This document shows, one piece after another, positions 24,835 to 26,342 of a DNA stretch of 64,000 nucleotides. Where the stretch lies: NCBI RefSeq assembly GCF_004212215.1, contig NZ_QVFV01000003.1, positions 379,969 through 443,968 of the forward strand, in the 5' to 3' direction. Each line of letters starts with the position of its first letter. Positions within the stretch are counted from its first letter, which is position 1. The translations under genes and the position numbers were made by a program. The DNA comes from Leptolyngbya iicbica LK. GTDB lineage: Bacteria > Cyanobacteriota > Cyanobacteriia > Phormidesmidales > Phormidesmidaceae. The notes under the pieces were generated by a model. It made no database searches, was not told the origin of the DNA, and was given only the letters and a program-made list of their open reading frames with translations.

Positions 24835-24872
24835 TCAAAAAATAACGGGGCCACAAACCATTGCAGCCCCGT
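24835..24872 (-). terminator. Intrinsic terminator of infC
   Basis: A 7-bp perfect stem ACGGGGC/GCCCCGT (24845-24851, 24866-24872) with a 14-base loop is followed on the minus strand by TATTTTTTG. Confidence 0.85.
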
Positions 24873-24896
24873 CAAGACATTTCACACTGTGCGGTC

Positions 24897-25418
24897 TTAG
24901 GATTCCGGCACCAATTGAACAATCAGCGCACGGGTATCAAGACTCTGCACCTTAGCCACGTCGTTCAGGTCTTGCACAATGCGCTCTAGTAGTTCACGGG
25001 CGCGATCGCGATGCTGATGCTCCCGTCCCCGTAGGCGAATTTGAAACTTAACGTGATTACCCTTGTCAAGCCACTTGGTCGCCCGCTCAATCCGAATGTC
25101 GTAGTCGGAATCATCAACATTTGGGCGCAGCTTGACCTCTTTCATGGTCGGCTTGGAACTTTGCTTCTGCCGCTTTTTCTGCTGATATTGGTGCTTGCCG
25201 TAATCGAGGATCTTAGCGACGGGCGTATCCTTGCCTTCTGATACGACGACCAAATCAAGCCCGACTTCTTCCGCAATGCTGACCGCATCTCGGGTATCCA
25301 TGACGCCACGGTTTTCATTTTCGTGATCAATCAGTCGCACTTGCGGCGCTTTAATGTTGTGATTGATGTTCGGCTGCTCAGGGCGTACACGGCGATTGGT
25401 AAACCTTCTTCTAACGAT
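24897..25418 (-). CDS. infC: Translation initiation factor IF-3, with AUC start codon
   Basis: IF-3 binds the 30S subunit, prevents early joining of 50S and rejects wrong start codons. The 173-residue product has the IF-3 N domain (FTNRRVRPEQPNINHNIKAP and the following strands) and C domain (KEVKLRPNVDDSDYDIRIERA, RLRGREHQH). In this frame there is no ATG, GTG or TTG between an in-frame TGA and a GTG at 25340, which would delete 26 conserved N-terminal residues. A GGAGGA Shine-Dalgarno lies seven bases before an ATC at 25418-25416, so translation probably begins there. E. coli infC uses AUU, through which IF-3 represses itself; the same control is likely here. A terminator follows. Confidence 0.92.
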   Translation of the reverse strand: MVRRRFTNRRVRPEQPNINHNIKAPQVRLIDHENENRGVMDTRDAVSIAEEVGLDLVVVSEGKDTPVAKILDYGKHQYQQKKRQKQSSKPTMKEVKLRPNVDDSDYDIRIERATKWLDKGNHVKFQIRLRGREHQHRDRARELLERIVQDLNDVAKVQSLDTRALIVQLVPES

Positions 25419-25437
25419 AGCGATTTCCTCCGAAACT
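25419..25437 (-). promoter_or_regulatory. Strong Shine-Dalgarno deciding the infC start
   Basis: On the minus strand GGAGGA is followed by seven bases and then ATC (25418-25416). An in-frame TGA just upstream closes the frame, so no standard codon can serve. The placement of the site is the main argument for AUC initiation. Confidence 0.75.
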
Positions 25438-25643
25438 CATTAGGGTGCAGTGTGCTCTAAACATACCCCAAGCTTGCCCGCCTTGCCATCTATCAACCTG
25501 TAGACGTTAATGGAAAGCAATGAAAACAGCGACCTGCAGCATAATTGTGAACTTTCGCATTGCAGAGTTGGGACCACCGCAGACAGTCGTAGCGAGGGTT
25601 ATAGAGGCACTGGTAGCATGATAGCCCGAGGTCGGTGGAGGCA

Positions 25644-26342
25644 ATGCTGGGCAAATCGATGACGGTCAGTGACGAGTTAGCGCTCATGGCATACCTAGAA
25701 AGTTTTGTAACCTCCCAGCGACTCGGGAGAATCGATGCGGTGTTAGCCCACAGAACTCGTCATGTCACGGTAGTTGCCGAAGATTTTCATGATCCCCACA
25801 ATGCCAGCGCTTTACTGCGAACGTGCGATGCCCTAGGCATTCAAGATGTACACGTGGTGGAAAATTACAACACCTTTAAGGCGCGGGTGGGAGCGGCTTC
25901 GGGAGCGACTAAATGGGTGACACAACATCAATATGGCGAGCCAGAGCAAGACAATACGCTGCTCTGTTGTGAAAAGTTGCGATCGCAGGGCTATCTCATT
26001 GTGGCGACGAGTCCGCACCTTAACGCGGTGCCCCCCGAAACCATGCCCCTGGATCAAAAATTAGCCGTCATCTTTGGGAGTGAGCAGGATGGCGTCTCGC
26101 AACGGGCGATCGCGACCGCCGACTATCAGCTCAAAATCCCCATGGTAGGTTTTGTCGAAAGCTTGAATGTCTCTGTCAGTGCCGCCGTGTGTCTGTACAC
26201 GATGATGCAGCGGCTCAAATCTCTGGAGGTGGCCTGGCAACTGAGCGATCGCGAAAAACAAGCTCTCCGGCTAACTTGGCTTCGCCAGTCAATCCAACAT
26301 AGTGCTGCGCTGGAACGGCGGTATTGGCAACAAATCAGATAA
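25644..26342 (+). CDS. trmH: TrmH/SpoU-family tRNA 2'-O-methyltransferase
   Basis: A SPOUT-class enzyme that methylates the 2'-OH of ribose, most likely Gm18 in tRNA. The three SpoU motifs are present: FHDPHNASALLRTCDALGI (motif 1), KLAVIFGSEQDGVS (motif 2) and KIPMVGFVESLNVSVSAAV (motif 3), which form the knotted SAM site. At about 232 residues it has TrmH length. The start is uncertain among GTG 25635, ATG 25644 and ATG 25659. It is transcribed divergently from infC across about 225 bp. Confidence 0.92.
   Translation: MLGKSMTVSDELALMAYLESFVTSQRLGRIDAVLAHRTRHVTVVAEDFHDPHNASALLRTCDALGIQDVHVVENYNTFKARVGAASGATKWVTQHQYGEPEQDNTLLCCEKLRSQGYLIVATSPHLNAVPPETMPLDQKLAVIFGSEQDGVSQRAIATADYQLKIPMVGFVESLNVSVSAAVCLYTMMQRLKSLEVAWQLSDREKQALRLTWLRQSIQHSAALERRYWQQIR

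Follow-up and report, generated by a model that had tools for sequence, protein, structure and literature searches.

A second, divergent IF-3 gene of Leptolyngbya iicbica LK very probably starts at an AUC codon

The window analyzed here, a stretch of 64,000 nucleotides from Leptolyngbya iicbica LK (contig NZ_QVFV01000003.1), carries on its minus strand a gene that, judged by its sequence, is a second, divergent IF-3 gene, distinct from the ordinary infC of this genome and termed IF3-B. Its translation very probably begins at AUC 25418. In the reading that we favor, and consider quite likely, this second IF-3 gene combines an AUC start with a strong Shine-Dalgarno sequence and encodes a working IF-3, the synthesis of which would be checked by IF-3, either topping up the canonical factor or limiting itself. 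The AUH-started infC arrangement (AUC, AUU or AUA) is known as such; what appears to be new, as far as the open-licence literature goes, is its place on a second cyanobacterial IF-3 that partly replaces the first. We found neither a second cyanobacterial infC nor an AUH start in cyanobacterial infC described in that literature. About one in four of the Cyanobacteriia genomes searched has an AUH-started second IF-3, and the canonical genes surveyed start conventionally. The features of the locus are listed below.

24843..24874, minus strand: terminator-like hairpin 3' of the IF3-B stop codon, with a stem of 14 pairs and then a T run (from a consensus scan only, which gave 2 hairpins in the region versus 0.8 in shuffles)
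24897..25418, minus strand: IF3-B coding sequence read from the ATC start, 173 codons plus stop (TAA 24899~24897), with Pfam IF3_N and IF3_C and TIGR00168
25338..25340, minus strand: GTG, the first conventional codon of the IF3-B frame, judged to be an internal valine codon
25411..25440, minus strand: short ORF of nine sense codons (ATG to TAG) that overlaps the IF3-B start in a different frame and is judged to be a chance occurrence
25416..25418, minus strand: ATC, the very probable start codon of IF3-B, AUH in 140 of 140 called homologues
25426..25431, minus strand: Shine-Dalgarno sequence GGAGGA, the end of its GAGG lying 8 nt from the start codon
25437..25439, minus strand: in-frame TGA that closes the IF3-B frame upstream, as read in the sequence
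25460..25465, minus strand: TATGTT, a possible but weak -10 element near the place of the TATCCT-type motif of relatives
25635..26342, plus strand: SpoU-family RNA methylase (PF00588, 108.8 bits), a divergent neighbor outside the unit

The predicted IF3-B protein scores 92.9 bits against IF3_N and 81.5 bits against IF3_C, both above the curated Pfam cut-offs, and 161.8 bits against TIGR00168 (cut-off 60). The preliminary description took the gene for the infC of the genome, which was wrong as stated: L. iicbica LK has two IF-3 genes, the other of which lies on contig C2, is 42% identical to IF3-B, and likely starts at the ATG of MRSRNPRN.... Of the five genus relatives searched, four (L228~L231) share this ATG and the fifth (L235) has a broken frame; the contig C2 gene lacks a Shine-Dalgarno-like motif. 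Downstream of IF3-B are the terminator-like hairpin, an ORF of 68 amino acids without a Pfam match, and a solute-binding protein. In other bacteria infC is usually followed by rpmI and rplT, an order that is not strictly defining; both are absent from the downstream neighbors of IF3-B. Upstream of the gene, a consensus scan gave no sigma-70 promoter pair.

Read on the minus strand, TGA 25439~25437 is followed by GTT TCG GAG GAA ATC GCT ATC GTT AGA.... As first described, neither ATG, GTG nor TTG occurs from this in-frame stop to GTG 25340, and GGAGGA (25431~25426) stands seven bases before ATC 25418~25416. The 26 codons that lead from ATC 25418 to the GTG had been regarded as conserved N-terminal IF-3 sequence, which holds for their final part, a general IF-3 feature; residues 1~17, by contrast, precede the IF3_N domain, which starts at residue 18, and are common to close relatives. 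The orthologues were read and aligned from ATC 25418, and the codon at this place is ATC or ATT in all of the relatives L003~L011. Another candidate, ATC 25424~25422, was rejected as the start. It lies one base after GGAGGA, and its counterpart is ATC or ATT in L003, L004, L006~L008 and L010, but ACC, AGT and CCT in L005, L009 and L011. Because the codon at 25418 is ATC or ATT throughout L003~L011, whereas that at 25424 varies, the start was assigned to 25418. Conservation of ATC or ATT among relatives, proposed earlier as a check on this start, extends well beyond the close orthologues, with ATC, ATT or ATA in 140 of 140 called homologues; a sequencing error is therefore very unlikely. The proposal that an AUC codon is paired here with a strong Shine-Dalgarno sequence, in a manner akin to E. 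coli infC, is supported as well. From this conservation we infer that initiation takes place at AUC in cells.

A conventional start, be it GTG 25340 or another codon, with the conserved upstream stretch serving as an untranslated leader, is very improbable. GTG does occupy the aligned place in L003, L005 and L008~L011, and three of the four intact Nostoc plasmid copies described below are annotated from downstream of the ATC; however, the aligned codon is GTC in L004, GTA in L006 and L007, and GTT in L012 and L013, as would be expected of an internal valine. A start at GTG 25340 would moreover cut into IF3_N and delete its first residues, the TIGR00168 score being 145.3 bits from this codon versus 161.8 bits from ATC 25418, and inspection by eye revealed no Shine-Dalgarno sequence just upstream of it. 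In 93 of the 140 homologues, the stretch from the upstream in-frame stop to the IF-3 core contains not a single ATG, GTG or TTG. We give equally little credence to frameshifting or coupling from the short ORF that begins at ATG 25440 as the way by which ribosomes enter the IF-3 frame: the ATC of L. iicbica LK does lie between this ATG and its TAG, but the ATG is absent from the relatives L003, L004 and L005.

The start codons of B-type genes were surveyed in 222 genes of the collected loci, 142 of which are unique. The start caller accepted ATC, ATT, ATA, ATG, GTG or TTG, located 6~11 bases after a Shine-Dalgarno-like motif and at most 26 codons from the core. It assigned a start to 140 of the 142 unique genes (101 ATC, 32 ATT and 7 ATA), and never picked ATG, GTG or TTG, though these were permitted. 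The two genes without a call either have no listed motif and read ATT ATC (L115) or lie at a contig end (L128). Since the caller requires a motif, the presence of one in all 140 genes is by construction; the absence of conventional picks is not. For L119 the called ATC may be too far upstream, and an ATT is likelier, with an in-frame GTG three codons earlier. A second check for duplicates left the start-codon counts unchanged, the sole apparent pair being the two genes on locus L104, only one of which is treated properly in the thinned and upstream-motif counts, as these index loci by name. After thinning to less than about 85% protein similarity, by a string-matching measure, all of the 53 remaining genes have an AUH start (47 ATC, 4 ATA and 2 ATT).

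Of the 140 called genes, 133 are preceded by a strong Shine-Dalgarno motif, and 94 have a GAGG or GGAGG whose end is exactly 8 nt from the start codon. The upstream in-frame stop lies within six codons in 83 of the 140 genes. An ATG is found between this stop and the core in nine; where a GTG or TTG occurs there, it is often the TTG of TTGGAG itself, and a conventional codon with a strong Shine-Dalgarno motif of its own is present in one gene (L219). The codons flanking the start are variable on both sides, with CTT, ATT, CCT, GTT, GCT and further codons preceding it. The site GGATCACCTCCTTT, which we take to be the sequence expected at the 3' end of 16S rRNA, occurs once in the L. iicbica LK genome. 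Farther upstream, GCTATCCTRGTAT is located at about -54 from the start in 35 of 113 thinned upstream regions with at most three mismatches, versus about 2.4 in shuffles; with this conserved promoter-like element, the leader would be some 40 nt long. A conserved operon around the B-type gene was considered and rejected, as clustering of the ORFs in L061~L140 (largest 14 clusters) showed that shared neighbors come mainly from related genera. A gene whose sequence was judged by eye to encode an RRM-type RNA-binding protein is found close to the B-type gene in 12 of the named loci L061~L140. The two genes of L104 (CAKZMA010000882.1) share one 13-kb contig, the start of one being read as ATA and that of the other as ATC. 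In L217 (G068:C8:193172-193654) the B-type gene lies in an open frame of 326 codons, and its stretch from ATC to core is unlike that of other B-type genes.

Copies of IF3-B are also found on Nostoc plasmids: two in strain HK-01 and one each in ATCC 53789 and C057, with remnants in SO-36 and UHCC 0302. All four intact copies read ATC at the start position, as inspected by eye. It had been predicted that automatic annotation would truncate the protein, and three of these four entries bear this out. In Nostoc sp. HK-01 plasmid2, ATCC 53789 pNsp_b and C057 p057_A, the annotated CDS starts 18 codons past the ATC, where residue 29 of the L. iicbica LK IF3-B aligns; the copy on HK-01 plasmid1 departs from the prediction, its CDS being annotated from a TTG eight codons before the ATC. 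Such annotation errors deprive a translation factor, which should be essential in some strains, of its N-terminus in database entries. The remnant in Nostoc cf. commune SO-36 (L368, NZ_AP025733.1) directly follows an IS630-type transposase gene, and that in Nostoc sp. UHCC 0302 (L370, NZ_CP151102.1) lies about 440 bases after an IS1380-type transposase gene.

The canonical infC of Cyanobacteriia belongs to the same family and has both Pfam domains, but differs from IF3-B in its conventional start, mostly without a Shine-Dalgarno sequence. Of 111 unique canonical genes (L031 and L326 are the same gene, counted once), 110 have an ATG, GTG or TTG no more than 60 codons upstream of the core, and the one without is L235 with its broken frame; by contrast, IF3-B has no ATG, GTG or TTG start. 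A Shine-Dalgarno-like motif precedes the conventional codon in 7 of the 110, and an AUH codon after such a motif also occurs in 4 of the 111 (L248, L249, L264 and L334). In plastids, a GTG start was reported for the infC of two Pyropia red algae (PMC3667073). The two types are well separated at the protein level, as the profile scores in the first 337 loci fall into two groups, canonical proteins at 160 bits or less and B-type proteins at 232 bits or more, and B-type proteins share 36~45% identity with the canonical IF-3 of L. iicbica LK.

A B profile built from 23 sequences was searched against 388 genomes of Cyanobacteriia, for which a completeness of at least 90% was requested, and matches of at least 232 bits were found in 98 of them. 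Among the best 80 of 148 loci, the named carriers include Halomicronema, Leptolyngbya, Nodosilinea, Calothrix, Richelia, Coleofasciculus, Spirulina and Adonisia. No match of this grade was detected in 68 genomes from other Cyanobacteriota classes (best 154 bits). A canonical infC is also present in 59 of the 98 genomes, and none was found in the other 39 in searches with the canonical IF-3 of L. iicbica LK or with TIGR00168. These B-only genomes, a status that rests on the assemblies, comprise 26 identified by TIGR00168 (23 of which were also searched with the canonical IF-3) and 13 identified by the canonical IF-3 (G008, G014, G018, G019, G172, G190, G231, G261, G285, G301, G309, G312 and G317). 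They belong to seven genera of the sample, and some of their assemblies consist of 2 to 10 contigs (G251, G006, G237, G274, G141 and G296). Two B-type genes are present in 18 of the 39 and one in 21. In Nodosilinea sp. LEGE 06152 a pair of B-type genes (L097 and L127) was observed, both with AUH starts. For 3 of the 388 genomes neither the B profile nor the canonical query found an IF-3 of any type, so isolated B-only absences may be gaps; 39 absences grouped by genus are hard to explain in this way.

Bacterial IF-3 is regarded as essential (PMC5472188). As the B-type protein is the sole IF-3 found in 39 genomes, it should do the work of IF-3 there, and IF3-B is very likely a working IF-3. In the 127 distinct B-type sequences, Y107, R131, G132, R133 and E134 (E. 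coli numbering) are kept in 100%. The same sequences depart from the family at R25 (L in 71%), R116 (E in 52%) and F117 (W in 100%), and have a shorter linker; owing to these departures, the B-type protein may discriminate start codons differently. Altogether, nature offers both the two-gene state and the replaced state, and what the rare start is for could be tested in such genomes.

In E. coli, IF-3 feedback that acts via a rare start codon is textbook knowledge. By analogy, repression of IF3-B by IF-3 through its AUC is plausible, and IF3-B would then be made when active IF-3 is short. In a two-gene genome such as L. iicbica LK, the canonical infC would supply the base level and IF3-B a top-up on demand, whereas in B-only genomes the B-type gene would act as a plain self-limiting infC in the fashion of E. 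coli. The repressor in two-gene genomes could be either IF-3, the canonical one equally; in B-only genomes it would have to be the B-type protein. A strong Shine-Dalgarno sequence combined with a weak codon would fit good expression once the check is lifted.

AUH starts are intrinsically weak, and the AUH start could simply keep expression low. We hold it to be quite unlikely that the AUC start, though real, merely keeps a minor IF-3 at a low and constant level free of IF-3 feedback. The weakness of AUH starts would suit such a role, and the canonical infC present in 59 of the 98 genomes could carry the load; on the other hand, a strong Shine-Dalgarno sequence kept at near-fixed spacing (8 nt in 94 of 140 genes, strong in 133 of 140) would be odd for low output, the B-type protein must be made in quantity in the 39 genomes in which it is the sole IF-3 found, and in E. 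coli infC the ATT start is linked to feedback (PMC5472188). A further reading, rather unlikely in our view, extends the proposed feedback into a control circuit, in which the canonical IF-3 would silence IF3-B via the AUH codon and low IF-3 would bring on the altered protein. IF3-B would appear when IF-3 activity falls, as under stress or with new ribosomes, and its changes (R25 to L, R116 to E and the shorter linker) would confer a different initiation fidelity or mRNA preference. The conditional gene would later have displaced the housekeeping IF-3 in part of the cyanobacteria, with plasmids helping its spread.

The favored reading, an IF-3-checked second IF-3, draws on several known systems. 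E. coli infC (its ATT was read in L366) resembles IF3-B in encoding an IF-3 protein from a start of the AUH class with a Shine-Dalgarno-like GGAGG close upstream; unlike it, IF3-B is a second IF-3 and has a SpoU methylase and a solute-binding protein as neighbors instead of rpmI and rplT. In E. coli, the ATT-started infC is repressed by IF-3 itself, as reported in PMC5472188; feedback is thus shown for E. coli infC, whereas for IF3-B we infer it. The same source gives an ATC start for Streptomyces infC, which is like IF3-B in this respect but belongs to another phylum and is not described there as a second copy, and it reports that the GTC start of Streptomyces sigR is repressed by IF-3, so that IF-3 acts on a non-conventional start outside E. 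coli as well. Experimental support for AUH starts comes from Staphylococcus aureus infC, with retapamulin ribosome density at an AUA start (PMC13009471), and from Xanthomonas euvesicatoria infC, with peptides upstream of the annotated start that agree with an ATT start (PMC5559785). Both are shared with IF3-B as to the class of start codon; however, they come from other phyla, and the accessible parts of these two sources describe no second, B-type IF-3.

Beyond the Cyanobacteriia, AUH starts of infC are common. In other Cyanobacteriota classes, ATT, ATA or ATC lies a few bases past a Shine-Dalgarno-like motif in 13 of 16 infC genes and TTG is used in the other three, as read by eye; these genes are like IF3-B in this arrangement, but are not of B grade. 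In other phyla, also by eye, an AUH codon stands behind such a motif in 9 of 11, with GTG in Paenibacillus and ATG in Parabacteroides; in some of these nine genes the annotators instead chose an in-frame ATG farther downstream. A paper by Gvozdjak and Samanta (arXiv, 2020) reportedly deals with genes that prefer non-AUG starts in bacteria and may cover infC. As AUH is common in other classes and phyla, it probably represents the old state, from which the canonical gene of Cyanobacteriia departed; the B-type gene thus probably keeps an old arrangement that the canonical cyanobacterial infC lost.

The phylogenetic trees place the B-type genes in two ways. In a 76-row tree they fall among the canonical genes, beside L335, with a support of 90/87; a constrained tree that holds 23 canonical rows together is 7.5 log units better, with a p-AU of 0.65. 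In a 58-row tree, from which 18 of the 76 rows including the longest branches were dropped, they stand outside the canonical clade, the support of which is 100/99. The B stem is long in both trees (1.33~1.44). Further IF-3 copies were also observed. L337 (G276:C2:135615-136052) encodes an IF-3 that is 42% identical to the canonical protein of L. iicbica LK, and its genome has a canonical copy too; it groups with Lachnospira on a long branch and was possibly acquired from elsewhere. L335 (G292:C209) and L299 (G200:C46) each carry a second infC of canonical type, with 60~61% identity to the query, alongside a closer canonical copy in the same genomes.
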